Source: a virus. From it: a stretch of 22,595 nucleotides of DNA. The stretch lies in the IMG/VR virus record IMGVR_UViG_3300047471_000506, positions 1 to 22,595 of that record. One strand, written 5' to 3'. The position numbers and the translations under genes are program-made. The notes under the pieces were generated by a model, which saw nothing but the letters and a program-made list of their open reading frames with translations, did not search any database and was not told the origin of the DNA. This document shows, piece by piece, positions 4,823 through 20,600 of this stretch. Every line of letters starts with the position of its first letter. The first letter of the stretch is position 1.

Positions 4823-6193
4823 TTGCCCACCGCTGCTGCGCTAGTACAGACGGGAATCGAGTTTCAGAGTCAAGGAGATCTTGAGGCTGCTCGGCTTCAT
4901 TATCTCGCAGCTCTGAAACTGGATTCGAACTGTGTCCAAGCCATCGCGAACCTGTGCGTCGTGTTGGCCGAGACTAACCGACTTGAAGGTGCAGCAGCAT
5001 TAGCCTGGAAGCTCGTCGACCTGGTTCCTTTCAATGGAAACTTCTGGGAACTGTTGGGGAACTTTCTAACAAGGCTGGAGCGGTTGGACCTGGCCGAATA
5101 TGCCTTCGATCAGGCGATAGGACTGAGTCCAGAGTCTCCGAGCATCCACCATAATCTGGCGTTGTGTCTGTTGAGGCAGAGAAAATATCAACAGTCGATC
5201 GCAGCGTTCGAGCGCGCAGAGAAGCTCGGATCAAGGGGTCACGGAATCAAGAACGACAAAGCCCATGCCTTTATGGCCCTGGGAAACCTGAAACAAGGTT
5301 GGGAATTGTATGAGTCCCGGTGGGATACCTTGGTTCACCTTCCACCGTGGGATTATCACATTCCCGAGTGGAAGGGAGAAAATCTGACAGCAACCCGAAT
5401 CCTTATTCATGGCGAACAAGGTCTTGGCGACACGATCATGTGTTCAAGATTCTTTCGTGACCTCGCCGACTGGGATTGGGCAGATGTGACTCTGGGAGTT
5501 CCCAGAACCCTTCAGAACTTGTTTTCTGCCCAGGATTGGAACCTGAACATCTTGCCGATTGAGGACATGAACGAAGAAAACATGAAGGGCTTTGATTATC
5601 AGAGTCCAATGTATTCGGCAATGAGATATTTGGAAATTGACTCGCCAAAGGACGTTTCATCAAAGGCTTATTTGAAGGTCCCGGAACCGAGAAAGTTCGA
5701 GTCTGATTTTAACATCGGACTCTGTTGGGCTTCTGGCCGCCGTGGAACCGAGATGGACGCTCGGCGAAGAGAAGCTGACTTGAAGCTGTTTCTCCCCCTG
5801 ATCGAGAATCCGAAATTCAAAATCTGGTCACTTCAGAAAGGGACCAACGAAGAAGACATTTCAAACCTGGGTCTTGAAGGTCTTGTTTCCGACGAAACCG
5901 GAATGTTCTCAGATTTCTACGAAACGGCGAAATTCATTTCAGGCTTGGATCTGGTTTTGACAGTTGACACTGCGGTCGCCCATCTCTCGGGGGCGCTGGG
6001 CATACCGACTTTCATGCTAGCCCAATTCTCCAACTGCTGGAGATGGTGGAACATTGAGAATGGATCGGGCGAGCCCTGGTACTCGGGAATGAGAATCTTC
6101 AGACAATCAGTTCCGGGCGATTGGAAAGGCCCAGTCACAGCGGCAATTAACCAGATCAATCTGGGTCTGGTCCAGAGGAAGATTGCAGCGTGA
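4823..6193 (+). CDS. TPR-repeat protein with GT9/heptosyltransferase-like glycosyltransferase domain
   Basis: The start is TTG at 4823, nine bases after AAGGGAG (4807-4813); no better-placed ATG exists. Residues about 5-170 form tetratricopeptide repeats, for example DLEAARLHYLAALKLDSN and LDLAEYAFDQAIGLSPESP. Residues about 190-445 resemble the GT-B glycosyltransferases of family 9 (ADP-heptose transferase type). They show GEQGLGDTI at 197-205, the nucleotide-sugar-site segment VDTAVAHLSGALG at 381-393, and WRWW plus RIFRQSVPGDW near the end. TPR-GT9 fusions are common in bacterial glycosylation loci and often act on proteins. The TPR part probably selects the acceptor, perhaps a virion protein encoded nearby. 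Sugar and acceptor are unknown. The stop overlaps the next start, marking the first gene of a coupled cassette. Confidence 0.85.
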   Translation: MPTAAALVQTGIEFQSQGDLEAARLHYLAALKLDSNCVQAIANLCVVLAETNRLEGAAALAWKLVDLVPFNGNFWELLGNFLTRLERLDLAEYAFDQAIGLSPESPSIHHNLALCLLRQRKYQQSIAAFERAEKLGSRGHGIKNDKAHAFMALGNLKQGWELYESRWDTLVHLPPWDYHIPEWKGENLTATRILIHGEQGLGDTIMCSRFFRDLADWDWADVTLGVPRTLQNLFSAQDWNLNILPIEDMNEENMKGFDYQSPMYSAMRYLEIDSPKDVSSKAYLKVPEPRKFESDFNIGLCWASGRRGTEMDARRREADLKLFLPLIENPKFKIWSLQKGTNEEDISNLGLEGLVSDETGMFSDFYETAKFISGLDLVLTVDTAVAHLSGALGIPTFMLAQFSNCWRWWNIENGSGEPWYSGMRIFRQSVPGDWKGPVTAAINQINLGLVQRKIAA

Positions 6194-6846: not shown

Positions 6847-7538
6847 AGATCTCCCTTCCAGATGTGACGGTTGTGGTCATTGACACGGTTTGTCACAGCT
6901 TGGCCCTCGAAGCAATCAAGGACACAGTTCGTGAGATCGAGCCGGCGGAGATTCTGGTTTGGAGCGATCGGAAACAGTTTCCCTTCTGTGATGTGATTCC
7001 CACAGGGGCGAAATCTTTCGAAGAAGTTGGAAAAATCCTCTGGTACGATGTGCCGAAAACAGTCAAGACCAGTCATTTCCTCGTCGTTCAATGGGACGGT
7101 TGGGTACTTGACGCAGGGAATTGGAACCCGAATTGGCTGGATCGAGATTACATCGGCGCTCCGTGGTGGCATCGGGACGGGCTCAACGTCGGAAACGGTG
7201 GATTTAGCCTTCGATCAACCGACTTGGCGAAATTCATTGCTAAGAACCAACAAATTTTTCCACTGGCGAACCCCGAAGACGTGGCGATTTGCCGGCACTA
7301 TCGAAAGACCCTGGAACTCTTGGGCTTTAGCTTCGGCTTAGAGTCAGAAGCAAGAAAATTCTCTTTCGAACGAACCGAACGGGTTTCAAGTTTCGGGTTT
7401 CATGGGATTTTCAACTGGGGAAAAGTCCTCTCCCCGGACAAACTTCTCTCCCGACTCGAACTGGTGAACGACTATGTTCGTTCCAGGCCCGAGTGGGCGG
7501 AGTTCTGGACTCAGGCAAGGACTCTTATCAGTGCATGA
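6843..7538 (+). CDS. DUF5672-like glycosyltransferase
   Basis: ATG 6843 overlaps the previous stop (ATGA, 6843-6846). The 231-residue product contains HFLVVQWDGWVLD (residues 78-90), RDYIGAPWW (101-109) and VGNGGFSLRS (116-125). These three blocks are the hallmark of the DUF5672 family, a GT-A-like glycosyltransferase domain. The Asp in QWDGW is a candidate metal/nucleotide-sugar ligand. The family is found in bacterial polysaccharide clusters and in phage glycosylation islands. Here it follows the DUF4422-like gene without a gap, so the two probably act in one pathway. Donor and acceptor are unknown. No membrane segment is seen, which fits modification of a cytoplasmic acceptor such as an unassembled virion protein. 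Confidence 0.82.
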   Translation: MKISLPDVTVVVIDTVCHSLALEAIKDTVREIEPAEILVWSDRKQFPFCDVIPTGAKSFEEVGKILWYDVPKTVKTSHFLVVQWDGWVLDAGNWNPNWLDRDYIGAPWWHRDGLNVGNGGFSLRSTDLAKFIAKNQQIFPLANPEDVAICRHYRKTLELLGFSFGLESEARKFSFERTERVSSFGFHGIFNWGKVLSPDKLLSRLELVNDYVRSRPEWAEFWTQARTLISA

Positions 7539-8103
7539 TACAGCCAGAGAGACGGGGAAGGCATTCTTCGAAACCTATGGGCCGGGGAAGAAGTCTGTCC
7601 TCGACGTGGGCTCGTTCGATGTCAATGGAACGTTAAAAGATTATGTTCCTGACGATATGAACTACTGCGGAACTGACATTTCTTCCGGCCCGAACGTGAA
7701 CGTGGTTCTTGACGATCCGCATCGGTTTCCATTTGTTTGTGAGGAATTTGACCTCATCGTTTCGACTTCCTGTTTCGAACACGACGATATGTTTTGGCTC
7801 ACCTTTTCCGAAATGTGTCGGATCGTAGCGCCCGGAGGATTTATTTACATTTCAGCTCCTGTTGCAGGAGCAGTCCATAATCATCCTATCGACGCCTGGA
7901 GGTTCTATCCCGACGCAGGGATAGCTCTCGCCCGTTGGGGTGAGAGAAATCTGGAGCCAATTTCACTCATTGAGTCGTTTATTCGTCCACCTGGCTCAGA
8001 AGGCTGGTCGGACTTCGTTGCGGTTTTTGCCAAAAGACCGTTCGGAAGGCCAGTGAATCTTTTAGTTAGTCAGTTTCCAAACGCAATGCACGTAAGGACT
8101 TGA
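7531..8103 (+). CDS. SAM-dependent class I methyltransferase
   Basis: I place the start at GTG 7531, which overlaps the end of the previous gene by eight bases and has AAGGA at 7517-7521. An earlier in-frame ATG at 7474 would overlap by 65 bases. Counting from 7531, the 190-residue protein has SAM-binding motif I VLDVGSFDVNG (23-33) and motif II YCGTDISSG (45-53). The central segment DLIVSTSCFEHDDMFW (74-89) and the loop VAPGGFIYISAP (99-110) complete a Methyltransf_11-type fold. Being the last gene of the sugar cassette, it may methylate a sugar hydroxyl or cap the glycan. Methylation of protein or another small molecule cannot be excluded. Confidence 0.85.
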   Translation: MHDTARETGKAFFETYGPGKKSVLDVGSFDVNGTLKDYVPDDMNYCGTDISSGPNVNVVLDDPHRFPFVCEEFDLIVSTSCFEHDDMFWLTFSEMCRIVAPGGFIYISAPVAGAVHNHPIDAWRFYPDAGIALARWGERNLEPISLIESFIRPPGSEGWSDFVAVFAKRPFGRPVNLLVSQFPNAMHVRT

Positions 8104-8122
8104 ATCGAGCCTAACCTTCAAC

Positions 8123-8129
8123 AAAGGAG
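8123..8129 (+). promoter_or_regulatory. Ribosome binding site that favours the start at 8136
   Basis: AAAGGAG at 8123-8129 stands three bases before ATG 8133 and six before ATG 8136. The same core stands six bases before 4124 and 15479, so the second ATG is the better start. Confidence 0.65.
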
Positions 8130-8135
8130 AGTATG

Positions 8136-8366
8136 ATGGCGACGGTAACGAAAGTGACTTCGGGAAGCACCACGACCTACACTGTCACAGACGCCCAGGG
8201 CAACGCGGCGACCTTGGCGGTTCTGGTCAATCCCGTGACCGGGAACGTGATTACTTACGGCGGTGCAGCCGTCCACAATGACGCGACGGCGATGATCAGT
8301 CAGCTATTGCTTCAGTTGCGAACGGGACTCCTGCCCGGCGCCGGCGCCCAGAATCTTCAGCCTTAG
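8136..8366 (+). CDS. Small protein of unknown function (76 aa)
   Basis: A tandem ATGATG at 8133-8138 gives two starts one codon apart; AAAGGAG spacing favours 8136, giving MATVTKVTSG. The protein is short, Thr/Val/Gly-rich and predicted beta-type in the first half (TYTVTDAQGNAATLAVLVNP). It ends in a helix (ATAMISQLLLQLRTGLL) and a Gly/Pro tail. I recognise no domain. The high GC content and strong ribosome binding site resemble those of the candidate decoration gene at 4124, so it could be a small virion component. It may instead belong to the following membrane-protein gene. There is no signal peptide. Confidence 0.6.
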   Translation: MATVTKVTSGSTTTYTVTDAQGNAATLAVLVNPVTGNVITYGGAAVHNDATAMISQLLLQLRTGLLPGAGAQNLQP

Positions 8367-8404
8367 GGCGAACCAGCCAACTCGGAGAGAAAAGGGGGCC
8401 AAGA

Positions 8405-8569
8405 ATGATTATCGAGATCCTTTTTGTCGTGACCATGTTCCTCTGGTTCTTGGCCCTTCTGCCTTTCCAGCCGGTTGAACCCTACCGGCCCTATGCGACT
8501 ACCTGGCTCGCGTTCGTGGCGATCCTGTTGCTGGGAGTCCATGTTTTCGCCGGATACCTGGTGAGATAA
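8405..8569 (+). CDS. Small two-helix membrane protein (54 aa)
   Basis: ATG 8405 follows a purine-rich site (GGGGG, 8394-8398) at a spacing of six bases and the frame closes at TAA 8567-8569. The first membrane helix covers about residues 3-20 (IEILFVVTMFLWFLALLP). A short polar loop contains QPVEPYRPY, and a second helix covers about residues 34-52 (WLAFVAILLLGVHVFAGYL). The size and two-helix layout resemble class II holins, but no endolysin or spanin lies nearby and the gene is far from a lysis module, so I do not call it a holin. Other options are a small membrane effector of superinfection or an assembly factor. Coding is supported by the ribosome binding site and by the amphipathic codon pattern. 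Confidence 0.6.
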   Translation: MIIEILFVVTMFLWFLALLPFQPVEPYRPYATTWLAFVAILLLGVHVFAGYLVR

Positions 8570-8607
8570 GGTTTCGGTCGTTGAAATTTGCGCTTCAGAT
8601 ACGCAGC

Positions 8608-8867
8608 GGTCTAGTGGGCCAAGTTTGCCGACTGAAAGAGGCGGCGGGCTGCGGCGATTTTTCGCCGGCTCAGGGACTCGATTGCGTTGACGGAACGGCC
8701 AGCCCGAGGTGGCGCGACTGGGCACGTGACGTAATCGCTTACGTGTCGGCCGAGGCTGCCCACCGACTCTGTCGACGGGTGCCGCTGGTGACAGCATACA
8801 GCCTAGCTGACTGGAGCCTTTCGCGGACTGGGTGGCCCAGACTAGACTCAAAGTCTTTTTTGGGCCA
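8608..8867 (+). ncRNA. Candidate structured RNA with long-range closing helix and competing 3' hairpin
   Basis: No convincing protein lies here, but complementary segments fit one nested fold. Outer helix: GTCTAG (8609-8614) with CTAGAC (8842-8847), then GGGCCA (8616-8621) with TGGCCC (8833-8838). Domain 1: CGGGCT (8645-8650) with AGCCCG (8701-8706), enclosing hairpins CGGCGA/TCGCCG (8652-8657/8662-8667) and CGTT/AACG (8685-8688/8694-8697). Domain 2: GGC-g-CGAC (8711-8718) with GTCGGCC (8745-8751), capped by ACGTAA/TTACGT (8729-8734/8739-8744). Domain 3: AGGCT/AGCCT (8753-8757/8815-8819), holding GCTG-GTGA-CAGC (8784-8795, a GNRA tetraloop) and CAGC-CTA-GCTG (8799-8809). I know no named RNA with this layout. 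It could be a stand-alone phage RNA or a leader for the protease-capsid genes. The fold was paired by eye and not energy-minimised. Confidence 0.5.
8844..8861 (+). terminator. Possible intrinsic terminator or attenuator hairpin
   Basis: AGACT (8844-8848), loop CAA, AGTCT (8852-8856), then a T-run through 8861. The stem is only five pairs, so termination would be weak. Its 5' arm overlaps the 3' arm of the outer helix of the structured RNA (8842-8847), so the two cannot form together. Confidence 0.4.
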
Positions 8868-9062
8868 ACACCCAGAATTTGTACCTTGAACAAAATTGGT
8901 CAAGACGCCGCTCGGTATGTTTCAAGATCTTCGACGTCGGAACATTGTTCGCTTTGTTCTATGTTTCGAGGTCCAAGCTCTTGCACCCTCGTTCAGGGGA
9001 TTACTTCGCCGAACGGTTGGTGTCGATACTTCGATCGAAAACCTCTTGGGAAGGTAAGCGAA
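8868..9062. other. Gene-free leader ahead of the protease gene
   Basis: I see no gene, tRNA or convincing promoter in these 195 bases. The one clear element is an imperfect dyad at 8885-8904, CTTGAaCAA-aa-TTGgTCAAG. The downstream end holds the ribosome binding site GGGAAGG (9048-9054), eight bases before the protease ATG. The protease frame stays open upstream to 8832, but the extra residues look like translated RNA rather than protein. Confidence 0.45.
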
Positions 9063-11096
9063 ATGCCGGATGATTTCAAACTCTTCCTTCCGATTTCGAA
9101 GGTTGAGAAGCAGAACGACGGGTCGGTGACGATTTCGGGCTATGCGTCAACGCCGGCGTTGGATCTCGATGGCGAAATTGTCAGCCTTGATGCTGTCAAA
9201 AAAGCCCTTCCGGGTTATATGGCTTGGCGGAACATTCGCGAAATGCACCAGCCGCGAGCGGTCGGAGTCGCGAAAGAAGCCAACGTCGACGAAAAGGGAC
9301 TGTTCCTTACTTCCAAGATCGTCGACAAGGCCGCGGTGGAGAAGGTTCTCGAAGGCGTTTACAAGGGCTATTCGATCGGTGGGCGGAAGCTCGCCAAAAC
9401 CGGGAACACGATTACCGAGATCGACCTGGTCGAGATTTCGATTGTCGACCGGCCAGCGAACCCGGAATGTCCGTTTTCAATTGCCAAGTCGGCGAAAGCC
9501 TTTACCGACTCGACTGTTGGTTATCTCGTCAAGACCGCTTCTCCGCCCCGGGACCCCAAAGCGCGTGCTCTCGGCCAGATGGCGAAAGCAGTTCGGACTC
9601 TCGCGAAGGCCCCACCGGCGGCTCACGATGGACTGTCACTTCCTGCTCCGATGAAATGCGCTGCACATGGGCTTCTCGACTGCAAGAAGTGCATGAAAGC
9701 CGCGAAGAAGGCGGAAAAAATCAAGAAACGTGAGGTTTCGGAACAGGAACGTTCTCGACTCGCTGGGACTGGGGCTGCCCTTCCCGACGGTTCCTTTCCG
9801 ATTGCCAACCGGTCTGATCTTGCCAATGCCCGGCAAGCTGTGGGTCGGGCGAAAGACCCTTCCAAGGCTCGGGCGCATATCAAAGCGCGGGCGGAAGCTC
9901 TCGGAGTCACACTTCCCGACAACTGGAAAAAGAAAGAAGCTTCGGCGTTGATCCAGTCCGCCGAAGACTCGCTTCTGAAACTTGACCCAAGTCCTGCGTC
10001 CGAGCTGTCCTTTCTGACCCTGGACGCCGGAGAGAAGCCTCGCCGCGATGGGGCTTCTTTGGGTAAGCGTCGATCTGGCCATGAGTCGATGCTTGAGGTC
10101 GACCTCGACCTTCAGAAAGGCGGCAATGGCGCGGACGAGGATTTTTTGGACTTGAAATTTGTGCAACCTTCTGAGGACAGAACGATGACAGTACAGGGTG
10201 ACGCGTTGACGAAGTGGCTGATCGAGAACGGGATGGCGGATGTCGTCCAGAAGGCTCGGCAGGGTTCTCCGATGACTCGGGCGGCTCGCATGGCCGACGC
10301 CAGGGGGAACTTGAAGAAGGTCAAGAAGGCTCGCGGTGGCGCGGCTGCGGCGATCGAGGACGCCCACAAGGTCTTGAAGGCGGCCTACTTGTCGAAACAA
10401 GCTCTCATCAAGGCCGGCAAGAAGCCGCCGATGGATGACGACGGCGACTTCGACATGGGCAAGGTCATGGGATCGCTTCAGAAAGCCTTCGGCGAGCTGA
10501 CGACCATGAAGACCTTCATCAAGGCTGCCGATGGTCAGCTGAAGAAGGCTGCTTCTCGCGCCGGCCAGCGGGGCCAGGAAACCACCGACGGGAACGAGTT
10601 CTACCAGGTTCCTGCGGGAGTGAAGGATCTGAATCAGAGCGATCTTACGTCTGCCGGTCCGGGTTCGGGGCGTGGTTCGGAACCTCCGATGTATCCGGTC
10701 GACGGTGGCGTCTATCCCGGCAAGTCGGCAAAGAGCAAAGGCATGATTTCGGTCGACCACGCTGAAGCGATCGCCAAGGCTGCTGCTGCCGAAGCCAAGG
10801 TCGAATTGCTGGAACGGGCGCCGATTGGTCCTTCCGGTCGCCGGCCCTATTCGTTCGATGTGACGAAAGCCTTCTCCGGCAACGGAAAGAATGCTGCGTC
10901 AAACAACGAGGCGACGAAAACGCTGTTCGACGGCGTCGATCCTGCTGCCTTGATGTCCGGCGACGAGCACGCCCACACGGCTGCAACCGCGCGGGTGATC
11001 GGCAACATGCTGACTCATCCTTCCACCTTCGGCAAGAGCGTGCTGTTCGACCCCAACTTCAAGGGAGGGGCCGGCTTCAAGGCACAAAATTCCTAA
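9063..11096 (+). CDS. Prohead protease fused to a zinc-knuckle-like motif, DUF6582-like domain and scaffold region
   Basis: The start ATG 9063 has GGGAAGG at 9048-9054. The 677-residue protein begins with a prohead serine protease (HK97 S78/XkdF-like, about residues 5-145). It shows ISGYASTPALDLDGE, His62 in REMHQPRAVGVA, Ser104 in KGYSIGGRK and Glu124 in DLVEISIVDRPANP, a plausible catalytic set. Next comes a Cys/His cluster CAAHGLLDCKKC (C199, H202, C207, C210). A segment at about 232-290, with LPDGSFPIANRSDLANA and HIKARAEALGV, matches the DUF6582-type domain seen in phage proteases. The remainder (about 300-677) is Lys/Ala/Asp-rich and helical, as expected for a scaffold that is cut away during maturation. 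The protease would process scaffold and capsid precursors inside the prohead. It precedes the capsid gene, the usual order. Confidence 0.85.
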   Translation: MPDDFKLFLPISKVEKQNDGSVTISGYASTPALDLDGEIVSLDAVKKALPGYMAWRNIREMHQPRAVGVAKEANVDEKGLFLTSKIVDKAAVEKVLEGVYKGYSIGGRKLAKTGNTITEIDLVEISIVDRPANPECPFSIAKSAKAFTDSTVGYLVKTASPPRDPKARALGQMAKAVRTLAKAPPAAHDGLSLPAPMKCAAHGLLDCKKCMKAAKKAEKIKKREVSEQERSRLAGTGAALPDGSFPIANRSDLANARQAVGRAKDPSKARAHIKARAEALGVTLPDNWKKKEASALIQSAEDSLLKLDPSPASELSFLTLDAGEKPRRDGASLGKRRSGHESMLEVDLDLQKGGNGADEDFLDLKFVQPSEDRTMTVQGDALTKWLIENGMADVVQKARQGSPMTRAARMADARGNLKKVKKARGGAAAAIEDAHKVLKAAYLSKQALIKAGKKPPMDDDGDFDMGKVMGSLQKAFGELTTMKTFIKAADGQLKKAASRAGQRGQETTDGNEFYQVPAGVKDLNQSDLTSAGPGSGRGSEPPMYPVDGGVYPGKSAKSKGMISVDHAEAIAKAAAAEAKVELLERAPIGPSGRRPYSFDVTKAFSGNGKNAASNNEATKTLFDGVDPAALMSGDEHAHTAATARVIGNMLTHPSTFGKSVLFDPNFKGGAGFKAQNS

Positions 11097-11142: not shown

Positions 11143-12798
11143 ATGCCCGACGGTAACATGATGCAGGTTCCCTTCACGGGACCGAATGGTATCGGCAACG
11201 AATTTGTCGCCTCGTTGTTCGAGAATGAGAACTTCCAGGCGATGATCGACAAACGCTTTGGCGGGTTGGCTAAAGCCGATACGATCGCGCAAGCAACGAA
11301 CCTTCTTTGGTACGACCTGCGCCCGGTCGTCCAGATGCTCTATCCCTATCGGGAATTGATTCCGCGGATTTCACGGCTTCCGCGAGTCAGTGCCGATGGC
11401 GGCACCGCGTTCAACTGGAAGCGGATCACTGGAGTCAACGTCAACGGCGCGTCGAGCGGCGTGTCGGAAGGCAACCGCGGCGCCCGGATCGCGATTTCCG
11501 AACAGGACATGCTGTCGGCATTCCGAACCCTGGGTTTCGAAAGCTCGGTCACATTCGAAGCGCGGCTCGCGGGAAGGAATCTCTCCCCGGATACGTTGGG
11601 GCTTTCGGTCCAAAGTTCCCTACGATCCCTGATGATCGACGAGGAGAAAATCCTCATCAATGGCAACGCAGGGCTTCCGCTGGGCACGACACCGACTCCG
11701 GCTCTCGTTGCTGGTGCGGTTTCGGGCGTTACCGGAACCATCAACGGGACGATTTACGTCGCGTGTGTTGCTCTCACCGGCATGGGGCAGTTGGGTTATT
11801 CGACCTACAACTCCACGACCGGTTTGGGTGGTGTGCTCGGGCAGGTCACCAAGACCAACGCCGACGGTTCAACCGACACCTATGGCGGTGGCTCGGCGAA
11901 ACCTTCGGCCGTTGCGTCGGCAGCTCCGACCGGCACCCAGGCCGTCACGGCGGCGGTTGCGGCAGTCACGGGCGCCTCTGCCTACGCTTGGTTCGCGGGA
12001 ACCGCGGCGAATGCGCTCTACTATGCTGGACTTACTCCCAGCAACCAGGCGATCCTGTCGAAGTATCCGTCGACTTCCGGCCAGCCGATGACCAATCTTC
12101 AGGTCGCCGGGAACTATCAGGACAATTCGACCGATATCCTGATCCCGGACGGGGTTTTGACCCAGATCGTTGGCTCGATCACTGGCGCGGCGCCCGGAAC
12201 GGCGATGGCGACCAATCCCATTCTGCCTTCGGGGATTACGTTGTCGGCCAGCGGCTCGATTATCTACACGATGGGTTCGGGCAACACTGGGGTCACGATC
12301 TCGGGGACGAATATCCTCGAATTCGATGCGATCTTGCGCGCCGCTTACGACCAGTACAAGCTCGGCTACGATCGGATCTTGGTGTCGTCGGTTGAGACCG
12401 CGGACATCTGGGGTGCGTTCCTGGCCCAAAGCGCCAACGCGTCGAGCTTCCGCATCTTGTTCGACGCCGACCAGGAAACCGGACGGATCGTTGCAGGTCG
12501 GAGAATCACCTCCTACCACAACAAATTCTTCGGCAACACGCTCGATGTCGAAGTGCATCCGTACGTTCCGCCCGGGACCGTGATCTTCTGGTCGGACAGG
12601 TCGCCCTACGAACTCTCGGGTGTGGCCAACTTGATCGAGGCGAAGGTTCGGCAGGACTACTATCAGATCCAGTGGCCTTGGTCGACTCGGCGGTATGAAT
12701 ACGGCGTGTACGTCGACGAGACGTTCCCGATCTACTTCACGCCGAGCTTTGCGCTGCTGACGAACAAGAACCCGAGCAGCGGCACGATGGTGTTCTAG
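11143..12798 (+). CDS. Major capsid protein, HK97 fold with Ig-like insertion
   Basis: This 551-residue protein has the HK97-type layout. An N-terminal arm leads to LLWYDLRPVVQMLYPYRELIPRISRLP (residues 54-80), the E-loop/P-domain region. A spine helix with SSLRSLMIDEEKILINGN (158-175) follows. Near the end are YDRILVSSVETADIW (409-423) and the A-domain segment GNTLDVEVHPYVPPGTVIF (464-482). Residues about 185-330 form an insertion with IYVACVALTGMGQLG, TNADGSTDTYGGG and ASAYAWFAGTAANALYYAG, which resembles an Ig/FN3-like domain probably displayed on the capsid surface. At 551 residues it is longer than the 300-400 usual for HK97-type capsids because of this insertion. The gene is GC-rich with a strong ribosome binding site. 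It assembles into the icosahedral shell around the portal and is matured by the protease upstream. Confidence 0.9.
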   Translation: MPDGNMMQVPFTGPNGIGNEFVASLFENENFQAMIDKRFGGLAKADTIAQATNLLWYDLRPVVQMLYPYRELIPRISRLPRVSADGGTAFNWKRITGVNVNGASSGVSEGNRGARIAISEQDMLSAFRTLGFESSVTFEARLAGRNLSPDTLGLSVQSSLRSLMIDEEKILINGNAGLPLGTTPTPALVAGAVSGVTGTINGTIYVACVALTGMGQLGYSTYNSTTGLGGVLGQVTKTNADGSTDTYGGGSAKPSAVASAAPTGTQAVTAAVAAVTGASAYAWFAGTAANALYYAGLTPSNQAILSKYPSTSGQPMTNLQVAGNYQDNSTDILIPDGVLTQIVGSITGAAPGTAMATNPILPSGITLSASGSIIYTMGSGNTGVTISGTNILEFDAILRAAYDQYKLGYDRILVSSVETADIWGAFLAQSANASSFRILFDADQETGRIVAGRRITSYHNKFFGNTLDVEVHPYVPPGTVIFWSDRSPYELSGVANLIEAKVRQDYYQIQWPWSTRRYEYGVYVDETFPIYFTPSFALLTNKNPSSGTMVF

Positions 12799-16608: not shown

Positions 16609-17082
16609 ATGGCCGATGGAAACGGAAACGGACACGACGATGGACAAACCGGCGCCACTCTTGGCGTTGGGGAATATGTTCCGTTCACGATTGGGGGCAG
16701 GGAAATTCGCGTTCCCGCCCTCAGTCTGTGGGACTTGGAACAATCGAGGGAAGATATTCGAGCCCTCAATTCCGATATGTATTGGACCGAATATGCCTCG
16801 ACGGTCCTGAGAATCATAGCCCGGAAGATGGGGAATGTTGACAACTACCTTCCCATGTCCGAAGCATGGATGAAGTCCTGTACGGTCAAGGAAGCAAATG
16901 GAATTACGCCGGCATTTAACCAACTGCTGGCCCTCAGCGGGTTTGAGAACGCTGCTGCTACCGACCCTTTAGCATCGGAGGAAGCCGGGGCGAGCCCTGG
17001 GACTGGGACATCGGACGAATCGCCGCCGAACTCGCCGTCGCTTTCCGAATTCCAGACCTCCGATACCTCAAGCGAACCGTAA
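16609..17082 (+). CDS. Tail assembly chaperone (gpG-like), unshifted product
   Basis: ATG 16609 has GGAG at 16597-16600. The 157-residue protein begins with a polar Gly/Asn/Asp stretch. It then has the gpG-like core VPFTIGGREIRVPALSLWDL (residues 24-43) and a helical part with SDMYWTEYASTVLRIIARKMG. From about residue 120 the unshifted frame becomes low-complexity (ASEEAGASPGTGTSDESPPN), unlike a folded domain. This is what is seen when the ribosome normally shifts before that stretch to make a longer product. Chaperones of this group bind the tape measure protein and recruit tube subunits during tail assembly, and are not found in the mature virion. The gene lies between tail tube and tape measure as expected. 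Confidence 0.85.
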   Translation: MADGNGNGHDDGQTGATLGVGEYVPFTIGGREIRVPALSLWDLEQSREDIRALNSDMYWTEYASTVLRIIARKMGNVDNYLPMSEAWMKSCTVKEANGITPAFNQLLALSGFENAAATDPLASEEAGASPGTGTSDESPPNSPSLSEFQTSDTSSEP

Positions 17083-17261
17083 CGCTGAAGGACTACCAGC
17101 TTTTTCATAAGGCTTGGACAGATAATCCTCCAGGAGACTGGCTTCTTGCCGCACAGTTGGGGTATAAAGCTCCTGAAGCCAAGCATAAGGCTGCAGTCGA
17201 GAACACAAAAATGATGTTCGACATTATCAAAGGGTTTGAGGAAGCGGCGAAAAAGAAATGA
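16609..17261 (+). CDS. Tail assembly chaperone frameshift product (gpGT-like, -1 programmed frameshift)
   Basis: A -1 shift at CCCTTTA (16965-16971) joins codons 16609-16971 to the frame that runs from 16971 to TGA 17259-17261, giving a 217-residue protein (121 + 96). The shifted part contains EPWDWDIGRIAAELAVAF, PDLRYLKRTVTLKDYQLFHK and NPPGDWLLAAQLGYKAPEAK. This is well-formed sequence typical of the T-type extension in phage chaperones, with no ribosome binding site or sensible start of its own. The frame is closed upstream by TGA 16944-16946, which places the shift within 16947-17082. Lambda uses the same arrangement to make a small fraction of gpGT. The T part is expected to contact the tail tube while the G part coats the tape measure. 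The next gene overlaps the stop (ATGA, 17258-17261). Confidence 0.85.
16965..16971 (+). other. Slippery heptamer C CCT TTA for -1 frameshifting
   Basis: The in-frame codons are CCT (16966-16968) and TTA (16969-16971) preceded by C, an exact X XXY YYZ heptamer. After slippage they re-pair as CCC and TTT and reading continues with AGC at 16971. A small GC-rich hairpin, GGGC/GCCC with tight loop at 16988-16997, lies 16 bases downstream and could stimulate the shift, but is weak by eye. Confidence 0.8.
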
Positions 17262-17676: not shown

Positions 17677-20600
17677 GTGCCTGATAACGTGAGAATTGAA
17701 CTTAGTGCCCAGGACGATGCGTCAAGTGTTGTTAGAAATTTATCGAATGAACTTCGAAAATTTCAAGTGCAGCACGACTCCATTATTCGCAAGTATGGCG
17801 AACATGCAGGAGAGGTTTATTACCAACGGCAAACTACTGCAATTAGAGAACAGATTCGTGCAACGACTGAACTCGCGGCGGCGCAGGAACGCGTTCAGCG
17901 ATATATGCAGGCACAGTCCAGTCTTTCTGCAAGTCGGGTAGAGGATCTTCTATTTCCAAAAAACGCTGCTGAAAACATCCACGGTTATGAAAGGAGTTTT
18001 AAGGAGTTAGTAGAAAATGTCGACCATGGCTCAAATCGTATGGGCCAAGGTATGCGGCATGTTATTGCGCTGTTCGACGAGTTCCAGCGTGGCCAACGCG
18101 GGGCTATGACTGCGTCGGCAACGGCCTTCTTGCGAGACACAGGGCTGTTGCAGCAAGGCATCAATGCTCTGATGACTCCGTGGGGCGCGGTTGCTGTTGC
18201 AGGTGTGGCAGCATTGGGTGCAATCGCCTATGCTGCTGAACAAGCCCATCAGCGCATAGCTTCAATTCGCGACACCGCTGCTGAGTTGGCCTTAAAAGGA
18301 CTCGGCGCTGGTCCGCAAGTTCGAAGCGATATTGCAAAAGAGTTTGACGCAGCAAAGGCAGCAGGTAACGAATACGCCGGAACTATTAAAGACCTTCAGG
18401 TCGAACTTGCTACGAAACTCCCCGCTGCGACTCAGGAAACCCGGACAGAGATAATTTCCCTTGCACAGTCCTTAGCTGGACTGAAAAACGTTTCTGCTGA
18501 GAAAGCAATTGAGCCGTTTTTGAAGGCGTTAGAGCACGGTCCCGAAGCGGCGGCCAAGTTTGTTGAAGGCCAACGCGGACTAGAAGGCGTTATCCGTTCG
18601 AATGGAATGACGCTTTCTGAGACTGTTCGAACGATTACGAACGTGGCTCAGGCTTACCGACTTGTTGTCTCCGAATTTGGCAAGGGCCAAATTATGGAGG
18701 CAGGAAGAGAGACGAATCTACTTAAAAATAGTTTTGTTGAGTTGTCCGGCGCGTTTATGGACGGCGGTACGGGGCTTGGTGGGACGTTTAATCCTGCCAT
18801 GAATACCACCGCGGAAATGATTGCGAAGGCTCACGACGCAACGAAAGATCTGAACGAATCTACTCGCCAGAACATCGGCGAGATGATGGCACAAGCGGAC
18901 GCAATCAAGACGGGAAATAGAAGTCTTGACGATCGTGTAACGGCGCTGAATCGAATTAAGGACGCTCAGGCGGGGGTGTCTCGGCTTGCTGGCGAAGTTG
19001 GAGAGTATGGTGATCCGACTGCAGCGCAGCGGGCGGCCAATGCGGTAAAGAACTTAGAAGCCGACCAGAGGAAGCAGACTCAATCTGGTGAGGAGAACGA
19101 ACATCAGCTCCGAATGAATCGGATCAATGCTGAGGCACAGGCGCAACATGCTAACCTAGCCATTCAAACCCAGGCAGCACAGAAACGGCTCGACGAAGCA
19201 AGGCGGATGTCGGAAATTCGCCTTCCTGGTGGCGATCCGAGTCAAGATCCAAGTGTTCAACAGGCAAAGGCTGCGCTTCAAGAAGCGGAACGGAAACAGT
19301 CGGATGAGACTCGGCGGATAAAGATTGATAATGCACACGCGGTAGCGGCAGAAGAAGCCCGTGGGACACAAGCACGGATCAAGGCGGAAGAAGATGCGCT
19401 TGCAGAAATTAAAGCGGGCGTTGCTGCGGGTAGAACTGCTAAAGAGGAAATAGGTCGGCAAGAAATCAAACTGGCCAACCTGAGACGGGAACTCAACAAT
19501 AAGAATTTCCAAGAAGCCAGGGACAATGCACGAGCGGAAGTAGAGTTAGCAAAAGGAAATGTAGATCAAATTCTCGCAGCGTATGCGAGGTTGAGTCAAG
19601 CCGCTGTTCGCACCGGACAGGCTCCGGCCGTTAATGCTCAGATTGAGCGCGAAAAGGTTCGTGACTTAGAATCGGCCCAGTCCCAGGCGTTTACGAGAGT
19701 TACTGAGTTTAATTCCTCGATGGAGCGTCAGGACAACCTGCGCATCCAGGCAAACCATGCGGCGCTAGAGATTCAAGTTGCCCAGCACGCCATGTCGAAA
19801 GACCAGATGGCGGCGAAAGAGGCTGAATTTACCCAAACCGTCATGGCGGAAGAGGAGCGTCGGGTCGAGGCGGAGTTAAAAACAAACGGACTCACAGAAG
19901 CTCAAAAGGTCCGGCTCTACGATCACCTGGCGGAACTCTATCAGAAAGATGCTGAGAAACAGCTTCAGGCACAAGAGAAACTGACTCAAGCCATCGAAGC
20001 CGAAAATACGAAGAAGCTCAAGTCGTTCCAGACGATGTTTGATTCCGTTGGAACGGCGATGGAAAGACTCCTCGATGCAGGGATCACAAGGTCTCAGACT
20101 CGACAGCAAGCGTTCCAGGAATTTGGAAAAAGCATCGTCAAGTCGATAACAACGGAACTTGGCCATTTAGGATCACAGTACGCTGGGAAGGGACTTGCGA
20201 GTGTTCTTGGTGTCAAAACCGAGGGCATGACCGACACGGGCATCGGTGCGGTTCTGAGTCGGGCGATTGGCGACAAGCTCGGGTTGACGAAAGAGTCGAC
20301 AGGTACGGAGGCGCTGAAAGGCGTTTCCGACAAGATGCAAAAGGCCGTCGACGCCCAGTCGAAAGCGTCGGAACTGTTTAAGAACTCTGTTCAGGAATTT
20401 GCCAAAGCCAGTTCGGCGTTGGTTGGGCTGGCAGATAAGCGGGGAGTTCCAGGCGGGTTTAGTCGAGGAGCAAGCAACGATAATCAACTGGGTTTAGATT
20501 CTCCAAGTTCCCAAGCCTCTGCGGCGGTCAGCGAAGCTCTGACTCATACGGGCGAGAAGCTCAAGAACTATTGTGCGATTTTAGTCAATCAAGCGTTGGA

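Follow-up and report, generated by a model that had tools for sequence, protein, structure and literature searches.

A HiPIP-like domain, local hairpins and a possibly coupled open frame in the gap before a phage prohead protease gene

The gap that precedes the prohead protease gene of the virus record IMGVR_UViG_3300047471_000506 is partly coding. The 22,595 bases of the record (positions 1 to 22,595; the window) were analyzed, and the protease gene was found to be preceded, in the same reading frame, by a cysteine-rich HiPIP-like domain at whose beginning a hairpin and an overlap of stop and start codons are located. Just upstream, positions 8608 to 8867 (the segment) had been described in a sequence-only reading as a structured RNA holding no credible protein. 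The gap proved otherwise: coding sequence at 8886-9062 is conserved, and a frame of 102 codons is open across 8581-8889. To describe the gap before the protease as noncoding is incorrect for 8886-9062, and for 8581-8889 it is doubtful. We favor, at a little under even chances, an account in which the segment is the lineage-specific 5' part of a HiPIP-like/prohead-protease unit, with an orphan frame coupled translationally to it and a hairpin at the junction. The weights given to this and to the competing readings are our own estimates and were not computed. The features concerned are the following.

7474-8103: methyltransferase-like gene, upstream of the segment
8133-8366: gene for a 77-aa product, between the methyltransferase-like gene and the membrane gene
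8405-8569, plus strand: gene for a 54-aa small membrane protein, an ORF with strong Shine-Dalgarno pairing, adjoining the segment upstream
8581-8889, plus strand: open frame of 102 codons with a TTG start, spanning the segment, coding uncertain; its TGA (8887-8889) overlaps the TTG at 8886
8601-8688, plus strand: local hairpin domain, -45.0 kcal/mol
8609-8621, plus strand: 5' strand of the outer helix, pairing with 8833-8847 in truncated RNAs only
8829-8872, plus strand: strong 3' hairpin
8856-8862, plus strand: TTTTTTG, which the 102-codon frame reads as T TTT TTG, possibly a slippery heptamer for a -1 shift
8886-9062, plus strand: HiPIP-like domain with four cysteines, read in the protease frame, with TTG 8886 or GTG 8832 as possible start
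9063-11096, plus strand: prohead protease gene (Pfam Peptidase_S78, E of 1.4e-6; PHROG head maturation protease) with its own Shine-Dalgarno site
11143-12798: gene for a 551-aa protein (PHROG 13692, unknown function), downstream of the protease

The 551-aa protein is taken for the capsid protein by its position only. A search with the 54-aa membrane gene found relatives at 58 viral loci, of which 56 lie in other contigs; among the 23 loci listed its gene contexts were varied, resembling those of a mobile accessory gene. At the left end of the window, one open frame (3-1013) joins a portal-like stretch (PHROG 12, residues 3-130, E of 2.4e-7) to an inorganic-pyrophosphatase-like domain (Pfam InPase, E of 1.6e-43).

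The coding character of 8886-9062 emerged from comparison with related loci. A weak nucleotide match to three of them (L007, L008 and L013), just 5' of their protease genes, was on inspection a protein match, and in all three the HiPIP-like domain likewise shares the reading frame of the protease. Upstream of it in L013, and again in that frame, lies a ChaB domain (31.9 bits, cutoff 27). The stretch 8889-9059 matched the L007 product at 42% identity (tblastn E of 1.3e-15 in a 551-base database and of 8e-13 in the whole window), and the differences between the two, 25, 26 and 39 at the three codon positions over 58 codons, are distributed in a coding-like manner. An alignment of six sequences of the domain contains seven invariant columns, four of which are cysteines. 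The region shares with Pfam HIPIP (PF01355) a four-cysteine pattern with GWC, and 37 residues align to positions 22-64 of the 66 in the profile. It differs in scoring 15.9 bits, under the cutoff of 22, and the AlphaFold model of the domain is of low confidence (pLDDT 56); moreover, the likeness concerns the flank 8886-9062, not the segment. DUF6767 also scored 15.9 bits (cutoff 27), and the L013 domain reached 17.9 bits with HIPIP. Because of the subthreshold Pfam score, the equal score of DUF6767 and the low-confidence model, we name the putative domain HiPIP-like only. Similar four-cysteine domains occur in other contexts in loci L134 to L141.

Two standard start codons are present in the HiPIP-like frame before its first cysteine, GTG 8832 and TTG 8886. 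At TTG 8886, Shine-Dalgarno pairing is absent (+0.2 kcal/mol, a value equaled or bettered by 87% of background positions); it is moderate at GTG 8832 (-5.6 kcal/mol), better than at TTG 8886, and good at the protease ATG, 9063 (-7.7 kcal/mol). The 102-codon frame begins 11 bases past the stop of the preceding gene, with weak ribosome-binding pairing of its own (-4.0 kcal/mol, a value reached by 26% of background positions), and it ends in TTGA at 8886-8889, where its stop and the TTG 8886 start share four bases. Junctions of the ATGA or TTGA type are those of translationally coupled, overlapping phage genes. Coupling fits the present junction because TTG 8886 has no Shine-Dalgarno pairing and because of the TTGA overlap; a stop-start overlap is thus found together with a downstream start that has no independent ribosome-binding site, as in coupled phage genes. 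Unlike in those genes, the upstream frame here has no homologue, a gene-unlike codon usage and a TTG start, and its coupling is predicted.

In the account that we favor, 8581-8889 would be translated as a short orphan frame, and TTG 8886, which has no ribosome-binding site of its own, would serve as the start of the HiPIP-like domain. Ribosomes ending the orphan frame may restart at TTG 8886, which would amount to translational coupling, and the hairpin 8829-8872, located just before that codon, could keep the start closed unless upstream ribosomes pass. Counted against a coupled orphan frame are its gene-unlike codon usage, its weak ribosome-binding pairing, the better pairing of GTG 8832, the site that the protease has for itself, the lack of a homologue and the weak structure model.

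With a codon score of -0.069, the 102-codon frame falls below all 61 in-frame blocks, and 45% of 31 open off-frame blocks score at least as high. Its synonymous-codon score is matched or undercut by only 1 of the 61 in-frame blocks. The HiPIP-like region has a negative codon score as well (-0.107), with a normal synonymous score (0.044), so a stretch with a low codon score may still be a gene. A plus-strand frame open for at least 98 codons arose in 12% of shuffles. The structure model of the 102-aa product, made from the single sequence, was weak (pLDDT 56, pTM 0.47), and a fold search with it gave 48 matches, the best with an E of 1.2. Apart from contigs of the same virus, searches for a homologue of the frame were negative in viral contigs, genome contigs, and phage and plasmid records; by tblastn against 179 loci from other contigs, the best E was 0.26. 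A match to PHROG 8751 (E of 0.051) was dropped, as a genome search gave 0 of 21 records, the window included, at an E of at most 1. Two forward frames read with X at their stops matched no family, and the antisense frame of the segment found no match in phages. Nor was there any trace of a decayed ChaB domain in the segment; the best chance alignment (E of 0.013 in the 551-base database) lay on the minus strand.

The segment itself is confined to this virus. A search with the protease yielded 62 loci, two of which (L002 and L003) come from the same virus, differing at 1 of 10,391 and 0 of 10,438 bases, and a genome scan with a protease alignment yielded 49 loci. The segment was found in two other contigs only, both practically identical copies of the same virus, and likewise, among viral contigs, the 42-base core of the 3' hairpin was present only in two contigs of that virus. 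The other 60 protease loci showed no DNA similarity to 8400-9100 at an E of 0.01. Searched with the segment, 179 nonself loci gave nothing with nhmmer at an E of at most 5 and a best blastn E of 0.16, and plasmids gave no match. Exact matches of 17 and 14 bases in other viral contigs had no real extension (nhmmer E of 2.8 to 4.2 at 4 of 13 loci), and a 33-base blastn match to eight Arthrobacter phage records (E of 0.09) was taken as chance.

That no recognized RNA family is present was borne out by an Rfam search of the window, with 0 matches at gathering thresholds, and by ARAGORN, which found no tRNA or tmRNA. A permissive Rfam search of 8560-9070 returned a single match at an E of at most 10, to mir-379 (8923-8981; 18.2 bits against a cutoff of 56), outside the segment. 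We also built a covariance model from the two identical copies and the fold including the outer helix; its E values are rough. It scored 298 bits on itself and at most 20.7 bits over 190 other loci, 12 copies of its own locus having been left out. One of the three scans with the model reported only matches with an E of at most 0.1. Run on the complete records to which 38 loci belong, the model matched once, at the segment's own twin. Matches at an E of at most 0.1 outside the segment (L033, L040, L018, L128, L084, L157 and L194) were taken as G+C-rich chance matches. Among the paper titles covered, none concerned this element. ROOL and GOLLD are large structured RNAs of phages and bacteria. 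The segment resembles them in having been proposed as an ornate RNA in a phage genome and differs in its lack of an Rfam match and of relatives and in a fold that depends on the choice of ends. A single independent sequence cannot establish a new RNA; if real, this one would represent a new regulatory element of a phage at the step of capsid maturation.

Folding energy was compared with that of shuffled sequences, a check named in the sequence-only reading, and it fell below the shuffles in 8600-8870 (-125.4 kcal/mol, z of -3.08; 2 of 200 shuffles as low) and in 8570-9062 (z of -3.97; 0 of 100). For 8608-8850, the z was -2.40 (3 of 200). When 260-base windows were ranked by energy excess with 14 shuffles each, the segment placed 12th among 172 strand-windows, and third when read on the minus strand. 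Shuffling of synonymous codons in the 102-codon frame gave a z of -3.2, with 3 of 300 shuffles as low; in the same test on ordinary coding blocks (30 shuffles each), 2 of 61 were equally extreme. Overall, the folding of the segment is not exceptional for this genome and is exceptional in part only. Local folds of about the same strength as the segment's are found in coding sequence at 4841-4928 and 18661-18748.

The structure is concentrated at the two ends of the segment. Taken as separate pieces, whose z-scores are flattered because the ends were picked after viewing the fold, the 8601-8688 domain and the 8829-8872 hairpin gave z of -3.77 and -4.95, each with 0 of 200 shuffles as low, and the middle, 8689-8828, where the GNRA-capped hairpin lies, was no better than shuffles (z of -0.53; 53 of 200). 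A plus-strand window scan is the fairer control. Among its 2254 windows of 50 bases, the one at 8826, which holds the hairpin 8829-8872, came first by energy excess, and by z-score at least two windows (18666 and 2136) were more extreme. Among nonoverlapping windows of 88 bases, those at 8821, 8601 and 8921 ranked third, eighth and twelfth on the plus strand. Local RNA structure in the form of two hairpins is likely present, because both are far more stable than shuffles and one ranks first by energy excess. A terminator would have a G+C-rich stem directly followed by a U run; in the hairpin 8829-8872 the U run lies within the 3' arm, and a scan of 8000-9300 found 0 intrinsic terminators. Inside the HiPIP-like coding region, a further long hairpin (8917-8988, z of -3.90) overlaps the chance mir-379 match. 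A direct repeat, TGGGCCAA (8615-8622 and 8861-8868), considered as a target-site duplication, was noted by eye only, and no terminal inverted repeats were seen.

With its natural flanks, the segment does not favor a nested 240-base RNA that the outer helix closes. The two blocks of the helix and the GNRA-capped hairpin (8784-8795) are present where they had been placed, and the latter has a probability of 0.72 to 0.92 in all five contexts tested. The helix had been listed with 12 pairs and has one more: 8609-8615 with 8841-8847 and 8616-8621 with 8833-8838, 13 Watson-Crick pairs in all with a 2-base bulge. At least 13 pairs at a span of at least 200 arose in 2 of 1000 dinucleotide shuffles, and at any span in 11 of 1000; the 12 stems of at least 6 pairs in the segment were matched by 43 of 1000. 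In 8608-8850, the 12 listed pairs form at a probability of at least 0.99, except for the innermost (0.38), and the mean probability of the outer block is 0.91 to 0.93 for RNAs from 8608 to 8850, 8856 or 8862. With the end at 8850, it is 0.85 for a start at 8581, 0.61 at 8600, 0.07 at 8570 and 0 at 8405. With the end at 8868, 8872 or 8890, the outer helix has a probability of at most 0.002 from any of the five starts; imposing it raises the folding energy by 11 kcal/mol in 8600-8872 and by 6 kcal/mol in 8608-8872. The single nested fold of the sequence-only reading is therefore not stable to the choice of ends; once the RNA reaches at least 8868, its ends fold locally, the hairpin 8829-8872 competing with the outer helix. 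The case shows that a fold seen in a segment taken alone can be lost once about 20 bases are added to it.

These results bear on what else the segment might be. That it is a noncoding structured leader, whose hairpins control the HiPIP-like and protease genes by attenuation or by gating translation, perhaps together with a long-range helix that excludes them, is in our estimate unlikely. In such a leader, 8833-8847 would perhaps be a shared stretch, contested by 8609-8621 on the 5' side and 8853-8867 on the 3' side. The z-scores of 8600-8870 and 8570-9062 agree with it, as does structure beyond what a 102-residue protein requires (the 3 of 300 synonymous shuffles), although 2 of the 61 ordinary coding blocks have an equal excess. 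Few shuffles (2 of 1000) have a helix like the outer one, which nonetheless loses in context, as would suit a switch, and the spanning frame has a codon usage unlike that of genes. Against the leader, forcing the outer helix carries the energetic cost given above, the middle of the segment gives no signal, the terminator scan found none, and there is no related RNA in Rfam or among the 190 other loci (20.7 bits at best against 298 for self). By general knowledge, two helices that compete for one strand are found in attenuators and riboswitch expression platforms; the segment differs from these in having no called terminator, no conserved sensor domain and no relatives. Of the regulatory leader of the protease operon proposed earlier, the local hairpins are likely and the nested 240-base architecture is not favored with natural flanks, and a leader or gate at the HiPIP-like/protease start is possible; a free or packaged RNA, also suggested, found no support in this analysis. 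We consider it very unlikely that the segment is a switch RNA whose exclusive states, the 13-pair helix against the 5' and 3' hairpins, gate the HiPIP-like extension to yield two protease forms, with and without a possibly iron-sulfur domain.

It is rather unlikely that the segment is a functionless spacer, neither gene nor regulatory RNA, left by a recent recombination that replaced the ChaB-containing upstream part of the relatives. The restriction of the segment to copies of this virus is as expected of such an exchange, as are its off-frame-like codon usage and the arrangement in L013, where ChaB precedes the HiPIP-like domain in the same frame and no trace of it is left here. However, both the 102-codon open frame with its TTGA junction and the 50-base hairpin with the largest energy excess on the plus strand would then be coincidences, and gaps of 300 bases between phage head genes are generally unusual.

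Besides coupling, a -1 frameshift at T TTT TTG (8856-8862) could carry ribosomes from the 102-codon frame into that of the HiPIP-like domain and the protease, yielding a fusion that mimics the extensions present in frame in the relatives; we regard this as highly improbable. The heptamer is in the right frame, within an overlap that is open from 8811 to 8886, and it contains one of only two TTTTTT runs on the plus strand of the window. Nevertheless, such heptamers occur in the genes of this phage anyway (23 in 6573 codons, or about 0.09 per 25 codons). The other TTTTTTG (10142-10148) is in the zero frame of the protease, where the -1 frame stops within about 10 codons. Furthermore, the hairpin 8829-8872 encloses the heptamer instead of lying downstream, and the next predicted stem, at about 8885-8904, is small. 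Elsewhere in the window, the gene at 16609-17082 has C CCT TTA in frame at 16965, with a -1 frame open from about 16947 to about 17258 that fills the gap before the next gene. This arrangement (16609-17260) is likely a tail-chaperone -1 frameshift, the tail-chaperone identity being assigned by position only.
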